Below are positions 1,024 to 47,313 of a stretch of 64,000 bases of DNA, piece after piece. The DNA is taken from positions 124,001-188,000 of the forward strand of contig NZ_JACHIR010000001.1 in the NCBI RefSeq assembly GCF_014203355.1, in the 5' to 3' direction. Each line of letters opens with the position of its first letter. The first letter of the stretch is position 1. The translations under genes and the position numbers were made by a program. The notes under the pieces were generated by a model. The model made no database searches, was not told the DNA's origin, and worked only from the letters and a program-made list of their open reading frames with translations. The stretch comes from Kutzneria kofuensis (GTDB lineage: Bacteria; Actinomycetota; Actinomycetes; Mycobacteriales; Pseudonocardiaceae).

Positions 1024-1533
1024 TTACTCGCCGGTCGTCCCGTCGGCGAACTCCCTGAGCACGTCGAGGTGCCCGACGTGGCGCGCGGTCTCCTGCACCA
1101 CGTGCGTCAGCAGCCAGCGAACCGTCTTGTCGGCGTCCCCGGCCGACGGGTCGCCGGCGTTCCTGCCCTGCAGCGCCCGTCGGGAGAGTTCCCACTGCTC
1201 CTGGTACGCCGCGACAACGGAGTCCGGCGTGTCCTGTTCGGACAGTCGGAAGTCGATGTCCGGGTCGGGGCTGTCCCAGCGGTTCGGCACGTCCTGGCCG
1301 CCGCCGACGATGGACAGCCAGTAGCGCTCGACCGAGGTGAGGTGGCGGATCACGCCCAAAGCGCTGAACAGCGGCGACGCCGGGAACGGCGTCGCCGCCG
1401 CGGCCGCGCGGTCCAGGCCGGCCAGCTTGTTCACGGCCGTGATCCGCAGGAAGGTCAGGAACTCGGTGAGCAGCCTCAGCTCGTCGGTGGCGTTCGTCTC
1501 CGGCCACCGACGCGACAGTTCTCTCGAACTCAT
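1024..1533 (-). CDS. DinB/DUF664 family protein
   Basis: A 169-residue four-helix-bundle protein of the DinB/DUF664 superfamily, a fold used by putative metal-dependent thiol S-transferases. The conserved histidines are placed as expected for a metal site: IRHLTSVERYW in the first half and HVVQETARHVGHLDVLRE near the C terminus. It converges on the ligase gene (3-base gap) and is divergent from the AICAR formyltransferase gene. The ATG lies inside a perfect inverted repeat at 1524-1539, so transcription or translation could be controlled there. The substrate is not predictable from sequence. Confidence 0.85.
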   Translation of the reverse strand: MSSRELSRRWPETNATDELRLLTEFLTFLRITAVNKLAGLDRAAAAATPFPASPLFSALGVIRHLTSVERYWLSIVGGGQDVPNRWDSPDPDIDFRLSEQDTPDSVVAAYQEQWELSRRALQGRNAGDPSAGDADKTVRWLLTHVVQETARHVGHLDVLREFADGTTGE

Positions 1534-1553: not shown

Positions 1554-1657
1554 GGGAGGTCGTGACTGGCGAGGGTGGGCTACCACCGGGGAGCGGCCGG
1601 CACGTGATGCGAGCGTCGACCGCCTGGGCGTCTCCGTCAGCAGAGAAGCTGAGGAGG
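1554..1657 (+). promoter_or_regulatory. ZTP (pfl) riboswitch with SD-sequestering hairpin
   Basis: The untranslated leader of the AICAR formyltransferase gene carries the conserved blocks of the ZTP/ZMP riboswitch in order: GGTCGTGACTGGCG at 1558-1571, CCACCGGGGAGC near 1583-1594, and CCGCCTGGGC near 1620-1629. Immediately downstream, CTCC (1632-1635) and TCAGC (1637-1641) can pair with GCTGA (1648-1652) and GGAG (1653-1656) around an AGAGAA loop, which would hide the GGAGG ribosome site. This is a plausible translational expression platform. ZTP riboswitches are known to turn on purine and folate genes when ZMP/ZTP rises; here the controlled enzyme consumes ZMP (AICAR), so the logic fits. 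Assignment is by motif reading, not by a covariance search. Confidence 0.88.
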
Positions 1658-1662
1658 CAGCG

Positions 1663-2730
1663 ATGGAGTTCCGCTACGGCATCAACCCCCAGCAGGCCGC
1701 CGAGTTCGACGGGTCATCGGTCCGCGTCCTGAACGGGCAGCCCTCGTACATCAACATGCTGGACGCTCTCAACGCGTGGCAGCTGGTGCGGGAGGCGTCC
1801 CGGGCGCTCGGGCGGACCGTCGCCGCCTCGTTCAAGCACGTCTCCCCCGCCGGCGCCGCGCTGTCCGGGCCGATCGACCAGGTCACCGCCGACCTGTACG
1901 GGATGGACGACGTCGGCCCCGTCGCGAGCGCCTACCTGCGGGCCCGCGACGCCGACCCCAAGTCCTCGTACGGCGACTTCGCCGCCGTGTCCGCGCCCGT
2001 CGACGCCGAACTGGCCGAGCTGCTCAGCGCCGTCGTGTGCGACGGCATCGTCGCCCCCGGCTTCGAGCCCGGCACCGTCGGCACGCTCGGCGGCAAGAAG
2101 GGCGGCCGCTTCCTCGTCATCGAGGCCGACCCCGATTTCGTTCCCCCGCAACGGGAAACCCGCGAGGTCTTCGGCATGCGCCTGGTGCAGGACCGCGATC
2201 CCGTGCCGCTGACCCGCTCCCTGCTCGGCGACGACCTGCCGTCGTCGGCCGTCGACGACCTGCTGCTGGGCATGGCCGTGCTGCGCTACACCCAGTCCAA
2301 CTCCGTCTGCTACGTCAGGGACGGCGCCACGCTGGGCATCGGCGCCGGGCAGCAGTCCCGTGTGGACTGCACCCGGCTGGCCGGCAGCAAGGTCGACATC
2401 TGGTGGCTGCGCCGGCATCCCGCCGTGCGGGTGCTGCTCGACGTCGCCCCCGGCACGCGGCGGCAGGACCTGATCAACGAGCAGATCCGGTACATCGAGG
2501 AGGACCTCACCGCCATCGAGCGCGCCGAGTGGATGGAACGCCTGTCCGGCGTCTCCTTCGCCTCCGACGGCTACCTCCCGTTCCGCGACAACGTCGACCA
2601 CGCCGCGCGGCACGGCGTCCGGTACATCGCGGAGCCCGGCGGCTCGATTCGTTCCGACGACGTCGCCGAGGCCTGCCGCAAGCACGGCATCACCCTCGTG
2701 CGGACGGGGCTGCGGCTGTTCCACCACTGA
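1663..2730 (+). CDS. Stand-alone AICAR formyltransferase (PurH C-terminal type)
   Basis: Phosphoribosylaminoimidazolecarboxamide formyltransferase: transfers a formyl group from 10-formyl-tetrahydrofolate to AICAR to give FAICAR, the ninth step of IMP synthesis (cytoplasmic). The catalytic Lys-His pair is visible in ASFKHVSPAGAA at residues 58-59. At 355 residues it lacks the roughly 200-residue IMP cyclohydrolase domain that bifunctional PurH carries, so FAICAR would have to be cyclised by another protein. The start is ATG behind GAGGAGG. A ZTP riboswitch precedes the gene. It may supplement a normal bifunctional PurH elsewhere in the genome; that cannot be seen here. Confidence 0.9.
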   Translation: MEFRYGINPQQAAEFDGSSVRVLNGQPSYINMLDALNAWQLVREASRALGRTVAASFKHVSPAGAALSGPIDQVTADLYGMDDVGPVASAYLRARDADPKSSYGDFAAVSAPVDAELAELLSAVVCDGIVAPGFEPGTVGTLGGKKGGRFLVIEADPDFVPPQRETREVFGMRLVQDRDPVPLTRSLLGDDLPSSAVDDLLLGMAVLRYTQSNSVCYVRDGATLGIGAGQQSRVDCTRLAGSKVDIWWLRRHPAVRVLLDVAPGTRRQDLINEQIRYIEEDLTAIERAEWMERLSGVSFASDGYLPFRDNVDHAARHGVRYIAEPGGSIRSDDVAEACRKHGITLVRTGLRLFHH

Positions 2731-7853: not shown

Positions 7854-9028
7854 GCCCCCACGGCCTGGAGCTCGGCCTCGATGGCGGCCTCCAGCCGGTC
7901 CCGCACCTCGGGCACGCCGATCTTCTGCAGCACCTCGTGGAAGAAGCCGCGCACGACCAGCCGCCGCGCCTGCTCCACCGGGATGCCCCGGGCCTGCAGG
8001 TAGAACAGCTGCTCGTCGTCGAACCGGCCGGTGGCGCTGGCGTGGCCGGCGCCCTCGATCTCGCCGGTCTCGATCTCCAGGTTGGGCACGGAGTCAGCCC
8101 GGGCGCCGTCGGTGAGCACCAGGTTCCGGTTCAGCTCGTAGGTGTTCGTGCCCTCGGCCGCGGCGCGGATCAGCACGTCGCCGATCCACACCGTGTGCGC
8201 GCCATCGCCCTGCAGCGCGCCCTTGTAGACGACGTTGCTACGGCAGTTGGGCACCGCGTGGTCGACGAAGGTGCGGTGCTCCAGGTGCTGGTCGGCGTCG
8301 GCGAAGTACAGGCCGGCCAGGTCGGCGTCGCCGCCCTTGTCGCCGTAGGTGACGGTCGGGCTGACCCGGACCAGGCTGCCGCCGATGGTGACCACGGTGT
8401 GCTTGAGCACCGCGTCCCGGCCCAGCTTGGCCAGGTGCGCGCCGACGTGCACGGCGTCGTCGCTCCAGTCGTGCACGACGACGACGGTGAGCCGGGAGCC
8501 GTCGAGGGCGACGATCTCCAGGTTGTCCGCGTACGTGCCGGAGCCGCGGTAGTCGACGACCACCACGGCCTCGGCGAACGCCTCGGCCCGCAGCTGCACG
8601 TGCCCGAAGGCCACACCGCCCTCGCCGGGGCCGGTCACCGTGACGATGGTCGGCCGGGCGGTCTTCGTCTCCTTGGGGAAGGTGACGACCGTGGCCTGGG
8701 TGAAGGACGACCACGCCTGGGCGGACACGCGGTCCGCCGGCACGCCGCCCGCACCGATGCGCTCGTCGTCACGGGCGACGCGCTCGACCCGCACCTCCGG
8801 CGACTCGCTCACGTCCACAGTGGCCGAACCGCTGGCCACCGCCGTGCCGTTGTGCAGGCCGTTCAGCCGCTTGAGCGGGGTGAACCGCCAGTCCTCCTCG
8901 CGCCCGCCCGGAACCTCGAAGGCGTCCACGTCGTAGGAGGTGAACCGGTCGCCGCGCGAGCTCTGCGGAACAACCGCTCCGCCGTGCGAGTGCTCGGTCA
9001 ACCCGTGCTGCGTCGTTGGGGTGGCCAT
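7850..9028 (-). CDS. sufD: SufD, Fe-S scaffold subunit
   Basis: A 392-residue SufD that forms the scaffold heterodimer with SufB and binds SufC. The beta-helix core and the C-terminal helical segment (DEQLFYLQARGIPVEQARRL, then VRGFFHEVL) match the family. One base separates it from sufB. Its stop codon is shared with the GTG of the Rieske gene. Confidence 0.96.
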   Translation of the reverse strand: MATPTTQHGLTEHSHGGAVVPQSSRGDRFTSYDVDAFEVPGGREEDWRFTPLKRLNGLHNGTAVASGSATVDVSESPEVRVERVARDDERIGAGGVPADRVSAQAWSSFTQATVVTFPKETKTARPTIVTVTGPGEGGVAFGHVQLRAEAFAEAVVVVDYRGSGTYADNLEIVALDGSRLTVVVVHDWSDDAVHVGAHLAKLGRDAVLKHTVVTIGGSLVRVSPTVTYGDKGGDADLAGLYFADADQHLEHRTFVDHAVPNCRSNVVYKGALQGDGAHTVWIGDVLIRAAAEGTNTYELNRNLVLTDGARADSVPNLEIETGEIEGAGHASATGRFDDEQLFYLQARGIPVEQARRLVVRGFFHEVLQKIGVPEVRDRLEAAIEAELQAVGA

Positions 9029-43948: not shown

Positions 43949-46840
<2,892 letters not shown>

Positions 46841-46884
46841 GCGTCGGGCCTCCGGGGCGTGGGCATACGGGCGCGGGCCGTTGC

Positions 46885-47100
46885 CCTCCCCCTCTGTCCC
46901 CGCCCATGACGGGCACCTGAGAGCTTCACCCGCCCAATGTCTGTCGACACAGCGCGGGCTTGCACCGTCGGCGGGACGCGAGTGACCCCACGCCCTCTTT
47001 CCAGAGGCGTCTGTCCCGTACGGTCCTGGTGCCTGAGAGGTTCCGGGGAGGATTTGCTCCTTCGGCGCCGAACCTGCCGGTCCGGACTCTCCCGCACGGG
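46885..47100 (-). promoter_or_regulatory. Tandem glycine riboswitch
   Basis: Read on the minus strand, two glycine aptamers lie in series ahead of gcvP. Aptamer 1 begins GGGAGAGTCC and contains CCGAAGGAGCAA and CTCTCAGGCACC, ending near GGACAGACGCCTCTGG. Aptamer 2 contains the GTGCAAGCCCG and AAGCTCTCAGGTGCC blocks and ends in GGGGACAGAGGGGG. These are the hallmark CTCTCAGG and GGACAGA motifs of the class. Such riboswitches turn on glycine cleavage genes when glycine is abundant. No covariance search was run. Confidence 0.93.
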
Positions 47101-47103
47101 ATG

Positions 47104-47313
47104 TGCGACTACACGCGAGAGTTTACCCCGGCCGGGTTACCAGCCCCAGAGTTGACCGCGGCGTGTCACCTCGATCACGTTCGGCGGCCGGCCCATCCTC
47201 GTGGCCTGGCCATGCGGCGGCCCGATCCCCGCGGCCAGCCAGGCTACAGCCGGATCCTGTGGCCAGCCGAGCAGCGGCCCGATCCCGTGGCCGGCGGCCC
47301 AGCCCATCCGTGG
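47104..47313. other. Intergenic region with degenerate repeats
   Basis: It lies between the MerR gene and the glycine riboswitch; the riboswitch promoter must be at its left-hand part (47101-47150). Bases 47195-47297 hold the repeats listed separately. No gene is recognised. Confidence 0.5.
47195..47297. repeat. Four degenerate ~29-bp tandem repeats
   Basis: Units with a core like GATCCYGTGGCCAGCC begin near 47195, 47224, 47253 and 47281, a period of 28-30 bases. A 13-base word GCGGCCCGATCCC is exact in two units (47217-47229, 47274-47286). They differ from the 29-base repeats at 28175 in sequence. Confidence 0.6.

Follow-up and report, generated by a model that had tools for sequence, protein, structure and literature searches.

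The 64,000-nucleotide stretch of Kutzneria kofuensis DNA analysed here (the window) carries an aptamer of the ZMP/ZTP riboswitch class directly ahead of a gene for a stand-alone, ATIC-type AICAR formyltransferase. Between the two lies a hairpin that pairs the Shine–Dalgarno (SD) sequence with bases shared by aptamer helix P3, an overlap that is also seen in comparison with related leaders, and the same genome holds a full-length PurH. We read this arrangement as a translational ON switch of the ZTP class governing an accessory, ZMP-induced AICAR formyltransferase, with a probability of about 0.82. On this reading, the leader RNA would bind ZMP or ZTP, binding would raise translation, the encoded protein would be active on AICAR, and its physiological role would be that of an addition to PurH that is called upon when ZMP builds up. 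A first-pass annotation of this DNA had already proposed the riboswitch class, the target gene and an SD-blocking hairpin, an interpretation that our analysis supports.

The aptamer lies at 1552–1636 on the forward strand. A search with the Rfam covariance model of the ZMP/ZTP class (RF01750), which had been suggested as a check on the conserved blocks readable in the letters, gives a match over the full model length (1–86) whose 48.2 bits exceed the gathering score (39), at an E value of 8.7e-05 over the whole window, and confirms the riboswitch; the span initially called, 1554–1657, takes in the aptamer and most of the SD hairpin. The conserved blocks ACUGGCG, CCACCGGGGAGC and CGCCUGGG and the two subdomains are present in the RF01750 alignment, and the blocks are identical in three Kutzneria relatives. 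In that alignment, with positions counted by hand, P1 and the P2 that it encloses occupy 1554–1602 (+), where P1 pairs 1554–1563 with 1593–1602, three of the four outermost pairs being non-standard, and P2 contains a GUGG/CCAC stem (1575–1578 with 1583–1586). The letters of the expected J1/2–L3 pseudoknot are also present, with GGCG at 1568–1571 (+) as its 5′ side and CGCC at 1621–1624 as the partner, in what we take to be the exact register. Such a pseudoknot is described as a feature of ZTP aptamers in the part of the source covered (PMC10907184). The formyltransferase gene starts 26 nt downstream of the aptamer match, which gives the aptamer a purine and one-carbon gene context. On the other side, a divergent mycothiol-S-transferase-like (DinB) gene (1024–1533, reverse strand) has its start only 18 nt upstream of the aptamer match. 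The promoter of the leader must therefore sit in or very near the start of that gene; a consensus scan of 1400–2800 found no sigma-70-like promoter. Elsewhere in the window, a tandem glycine riboswitch (RF00504, 67.3 and 34.2 bits) at 46884–47104 on the reverse strand lies upstream of a glycine decarboxylase P-protein gene (43949–46840, reverse strand).

The gene at 1663–2730 (+) encodes a protein of 355 aa without an IMP cyclohydrolase domain, and the initial call of a stand-alone, IMPCH-less AICAR formyltransferase holds. The protein scores 439.5 bits with family NF005492 (curated cut-off 415), reaches only 218 of the 528 bits that the bifunctional PurH model TIGR00355 requires (aligned from position 208), and has PF01808 as its sole Pfam match (profile positions 78–311), with no PF02142. 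Its nearest named relatives belong to Kutzneria species, at 92–93% protein identity. The best PDB relatives are ATIC chains (320–330 bits by sequence and 391–399 with a profile), from organisms that we take to be eukaryotic, with the best bacterial PurH chain, 3zzm (presumably mycobacterial), far behind at 118 and 123 bits. In sequence, ATIC-type chains are closer relatives of the enzyme than bacterial PurH is.

The source genome has two PF01808 genes, the one at 1663–2730 and one for a full-length PurH (PF02142 and PF01808 from position 1). The simple pairing of switch and enzyme pictured in the first-pass annotation is thereby refined, in that the stand-alone enzyme comes on top of a normal PurH. 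The PurH gene directly follows a purN-like PF00551 gene, forming a purN–purH pair, and no ZTP match was found near it in the 16-kb locus. Two ZTP matches occur in the genome, at 1552–1636 of the window and at C1:792747–792836 on the opposite strand, and the second (50.0 bits; 8001–8090 of locus L005, reverse strand) lies directly ahead of the serine hydroxymethyltransferase gene glyA (PF00464). Given this second riboswitch, one signal would raise both glyA, on the side of folate one-carbon supply, and the formyltransferase that spends it.

Stand-alone proteins above the NF005492 cut-off were found in 4 of 296 genomes of the class, source genome included, and all four genes have a ZTP match 26–34 nt before the gene match. 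In the same 296 genomes, at least 17 bifunctional purH genes have a ZTP match just upstream (17 pairs checked, with the cyclohydrolase length assumed to be about 600 nt). The remark made at first pass that pairing with a stand-alone enzyme is less usual is thus right by raw count, while per gene the linkage is the rule in this sample, with every one of the stand-alone genes linked. Among the relatives in a wider sample (the best 80 of 243), the riboswitch is directly upstream in 59, at 10–68 nt before the gene match, and a full PurH is present in the same genome in all 59. Seventeen of the 21 unlinked relatives come from genomes without a full PurH, the exceptions being L088 and L109, which are actinobacterial stand-alone genes without a ZTP match, and L122 and L142, where both enzymes are in the genome and no riboswitch is upstream; RF01750 searches over more than 40 genomes used stricter filters, which makes an absent match weaker evidence. 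The label of a full PurH was assigned by reading match lists, with G367 (three stops) taken as not full and G371 (1–295) as full. A phylogeny-aware pair test over the 80 loci yields only 3–4 independent pairs (means of 1.3 in the same direction, 0 opposite and 1.7 without difference), too few for a sign test to reach significance, and related rows inflate the PurH statistics.

The association was also put as a prediction for Paenibacillaceae (148 genomes), set before testing: a riboswitch upstream of the stand-alone gene if a second, bifunctional PurH is present, and otherwise none. The stand-alone gene is above cut-off in 19 of these genomes, and in one more, G429, it is split over two frames. 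The riboswitch is present in 8 of 8 cases with PurH and in 0 of 12 without, where “no PurH” means a single NF005492 match, 4 of these 12 also showing a single PF01808 match; five of the 20 had already come up before the prediction, and without them the figures are 7 of 7 against 0 of 8, the rows being related to one another.

These counts bear on the alternative that survives best, in which the stand-alone gene is the main AICAR formyltransferase, placed under the riboswitch, and PurH mostly supplies the cyclohydrolase. The family does appear capable of such work. In a PurH-less Paenibacillus (L128), the same-family gene is the sole PF01808 match in the genome and stands in the order purM (PF02769), purN (PF00551), stand-alone gene, PurO-like IMP cyclohydrolase (PF07826) and purD (PF02844), where it is very likely the housekeeping AICAR formyltransferase. 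However, it is the sole copies in Paenibacillaceae that lack an upstream riboswitch, the riboswitch-linked copies accompany a full PurH throughout, and the PurH of the source genome retains the checked catalytic and AICAR-site residues, except for E in place of D at human position 339. We consider a housekeeping role for the window gene improbable, and an accessory enzyme beside a full-length PurH remains the preferred reading.

A second alternative concerns the substrate, and here the residues and the neighbourhood are informative. Human K266, H267, N431, D546, R207 and Y208 correspond to K58, H59, N213, D309, R4 and Y5 of the 1663–2730 protein, and are, in part by our own assumption, the catalytic Lys/His and AICAR-site residues. 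These roles are otherwise drawn from the part of a published account covered here, whose numbering is one higher (PMC3261824). All six residues are invariant in the 60 riboswitch-linked proteins, and human R588 is matched in 59 of the 60. The position of human F541, which we presume to lie on the folate side, is variable among the same proteins (A 32, Y 13, F 11, S 3, T 1; n = 60), whereas 19 of 21 unlinked stand-alone proteins have F there; this hints that the linked enzyme may be tuned for low 10-formyl-THF. The linked enzymes of Kribbella loci L117, L119–L121, L124, L130, L131 and L140 have about 300 aa, some 80 aa below most others, and in 11 riboswitch-linked proteins human N489 is aligned to a gap. 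Across 56 loci, each neighbour family (from stop-to-stop ORFs of at least 120 codons within about 4 kb, some loci being shorter) occurs in at most 3 of 22 genus labels (21 genera and “unknown”). A shared operon or biosynthetic cluster was rejected on this count, and riboswitch and gene therefore look like a self-contained unit. The sporadic occurrence of the gene and its variable F541 position could be taken to mean that the protein formylates another substrate, for example in a secondary pathway, with ZMP serving as a stress cue only. However, the checked AICAR-site positions are invariant, no common neighbourhood was found, and this class of switch senses the classical substrate itself. All of this argues against a different substrate, and we regard it as very unlikely when set beside an enzyme acting on ZMP.

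The proposed output of the switch rests on the segment between aptamer and start codon. The SD, GGAGG at 1653–1657 (+), lies 5 nt ahead of the ATG and is the same in the window and three Kutzneria leaders. It is taken up in a hairpin (1628–1661, +) in which 1628–1635 pair with 1653–1661 (A1659 unpaired) and 1637–1641 with 1648–1652, G1636 being bulged. The CTCC-G-TCAGC/GCTGA-GGAG pairing noted at first pass is present, within a helix that is longer than had been stated. The minimum free energy (MFE) of the segment 1626–1665 is −19.8 kcal/mol, whereas its dinucleotide shuffles average −10.8 (z −4.25) and 0 of 200 of them fold as well. The whole leader (1545–1680) is not unusually stable (z −0.21, 83 of 200 shuffles as good), so the signal comes from the aptamer model and from the hairpin itself rather than from the stability of the leader as a whole; the full aptamer was not seen in free MFE folds of the leader and its 5′ pieces.

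Part of the 5′ strand of the hairpin, 1628–1634, doubles as the 3′ strand of P3, which makes the two helices rivals for these bases. The 5-bp Rfam core of P3 (1613–1617 with 1627–1631) was rejected as the sole basis of switching: with this core locked in constrained folding, the SD stays paired, with a probability of being unpaired of about 0.01 at four of its five bases and 0.51 at the fifth. Because the core still permits the SD hairpin, we propose an extended P3 (1611–1634, +), in which 1611–1617 pair with 1627–1630 and 1632–1634 and U1631 is bulged. Locking the extended helix gives unpaired probabilities of 0.95, 0.08, 0.99, 0.52 and 0.33 at 1653–1657, compared with 0.003–0.05 in the unconstrained leader, and so is needed for most of the SD to come free, although some of its bases (1654, 1656 and 1657) remain paired to a considerable degree. 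The SD hairpin is also the more stable of the two (−19.8 against −11.2 kcal/mol for the P3 hairpin, the latter computed without ligand or pseudoknot), and switching must therefore depend on the ligand or on folding kinetics.

Comparative support for this competition comes from 59 leaders, namely that of the window, those of 56 actinobacterial loci, and L008 and L009. The SD test left out three Firmicutes leaders and also L007, whose coordinates match those in the genome of L099. With SD positions assigned from our own motif list, at least three SD bases pair with the P3 3′ region in 55 of the 59 leaders (mean 32 and maximum 41 in mononucleotide shuffles of the spacer) and at least four do so in 38 (mean 21, maximum 30), the exceptions with fewer than three being L080, L091, L008 and L009. 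The hairpin halves fold better with their own partners than with swapped ones (means of −17.4 against −13.1 kcal/mol, 0 of 5000 permutations as low), and the same holds after thinning to 41 dissimilar leaders (−16.9 against −12.8 kcal/mol, again 0 of 5000), although kinship among the leaders inflates these statistics and remains a reservation even after the thinning. The SD letters differ between leaders (GGAGG, AGGAG, GGGAG, GGGG and others), and the partner strand follows in the leaders inspected. The arms of P3 show a like preference for their own partners over swapped ones, which 0 of 5000 permutations equalled. P3 has at least 6 bp in 50 leaders, 3 bp in six (L094, L096, L099 and L118, from Frankiaceae and Micromonosporaceae, with L008 and L009) and 2 bp in L085; its reach overlaps the SD-pairing bases in 53 of the 59, so that the expression platform competes with P3. 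An origin of the SD hairpin as a chance GC-rich fold was rejected by the shuffles, the swapped halves and the thinning, with the leaders being related and not independent. Folding and comparison together thus bear out the SD-blocking hairpin first proposed from the letters.

Hiding of the SD is a known kind of riboswitch output. Given that the SD lies in the competing hairpin and that no intrinsic-terminator-like site was found in 1400–2800, a translational switch is plausible. Control of transcription by rho or by a missed terminator is highly improbable, as its main encouragement comes from the Firmicutes leaders L125, L126 and L146 of the same gene, where a terminator-like hairpin of 11–13 pairs and a T run at the end of the aptamer indicates that riboswitch and gene occur together with either type of platform, and it is opposed by the lack of such a site here, by the position of the SD itself and by a pairing kept across leaders with differing letters.

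The anatomy of this leader fits ON control, the SD taking the position that a terminator has in other ZTP switches. When 10-formyl-THF is scarce, ZMP and ZTP would accumulate and the aptamer would be bound, stabilizing the pseudoknot and P3. With P3 extended into CUC at 1632–1634, the anti-SD strand would be held, most of GGAGG would be free and the enzyme would be made. The accessory enzyme would then turn ZMP into FAICAR, which the resident PurH would close to IMP. Without ligand, GCUGA-GGAGG would displace the 3′ strand of P3 and hide the SD. The ON direction is our inference from anatomy, since a tandem ZTP arrangement is predicted to be OFF in the part of one report covered here (PMC9481103). 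The first-pass annotation had treated ZMP as the precursor of the ligand, which does not hold if only the precursor is meant, as ZMP is itself a ligand of the class in the sections of the source available to us (PMC7484762).

The Firmicutes cases also inform the history of the pair. The linked proteins of L125, L126 and L146 cluster with 12 unlinked Paenibacillaceae proteins (SH-aLRT 100, 15 rows) and do not group with the actinobacterial riboswitch-linked ones in the same tree. A single origin, with all linked proteins in one clade, was rejected (AU p 3.7e-6) on a quick tree with a very long outgroup branch (7.4), an unsure rooting and a group not fixed before the data were seen. Given this placement of the Firmicutes proteins, the riboswitch–gene pair probably arose at least twice. 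We tentatively suggest, with rather less than even confidence, that ZTP riboswitch and stand-alone ATIC-type formyltransferase are the two parts of a portable unit for “ZMP relief”. This unit would have been put together on at least two occasions, with SD hairpins as the platform in Actinomycetota and terminator-like hairpins in Bacillota, and in all linked cases seen it supplements a PurH already resident in the genome (59 of 59 in the relatives, the best 80 of 243, and 8 of 8 in Paenibacillaceae, with one genome common to both). Two genomes show further arrangements. In a Paenibacillus (G374, the genome of L145), a ZTP riboswitch at C1:33851–34169 lies together with, and ahead of, a formyltransferase-family fragment with a 78-aa open frame and one stop inside the match. 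Separately from the fragment, this genome encodes a stand-alone enzyme, but it gave no full PurH match, and the fragment is possibly a decaying riboswitch-linked copy. In Bacillus sp. 03113 (G375, the genome of L146), the stand-alone formyltransferase gene is present twice, and each of the two copies has a ZTP riboswitch of its own; the genome also encodes a full PurH, and a further family match, the fourth, is weaker.

In the alarmone idea of ZTP, cells answer missing 10-formyl-THF by making more of it. The switch described here is also placed on a second, ZMP-consuming enzyme despite PurH being already present, probably as a backup enzyme that PurH-carrying bacteria switch on when folate is short. 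If so, a kinetic difference between the two formyltransferases is predicted, and the two enzymes, one riboswitch-linked and one not, would be a natural pair for testing the cost of ZMP accumulation. Our results also suggest that some “purH” records downstream of ZTP riboswitches may be the accessory stand-alone gene.

The class and its ligand logic are already known. For its consistent attachment to an accessory enzyme of the ATIC type, the literature covered offered no precedent: among the matches listed in open-licence PMC, by titles and the starts of abstracts, no account of a ZTP riboswitch with such an enzyme was found, the founding study (Kim 2015) lying outside that scope. ZTP (pfl) riboswitches are listed upstream of purH, glyA, folD, fhs and pfl in the part of the source covered (PMC2864571). 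The window leader resembles RF01750 riboswitches in its covariance match, its purine and one-carbon logic and a P3 that competes with the platform; it differs in that its target is a stand-alone ATIC-type enzyme, extra to a PurH that has no ZTP riboswitch, and in that its platform hides the SD rather than ending transcription. Published ZTP switches, in the portions of the reports covered, work by strand displacement, in which the ligand protects P3 from the expression platform and expression is turned ON (PMC10907184, PMC10085676, PMC7484762). With the Clostridium beijerinckii pfl and Fusobacterium ulcerans ZTP riboswitches, as partly covered here (PMC10085676, PMC7484762), the likeness lies in a ligand-gated strand displacement at P3; these two end in intrinsic terminators, whereas none was found in the window leader. 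As a member of NF005492 (PRK07106), the enzyme shares with its family a score above the curated cut-off and the lack of a cyclohydrolase part. In PurH-less Paenibacillaceae, the family member is the sole enzyme and has no upstream riboswitch (12 of 12), standing beside a PurO-like gene in the one such locus checked, whereas the window copy is extra and riboswitch-linked. Archaeal isolated PurH1 domains likewise set the formyltransferase apart from the cyclohydrolase, and isolated PurH domains are frequent only in archaea according to the part of the source covered (PMC3261824); unlike them, the window enzyme is a bacterial addition to PurH.
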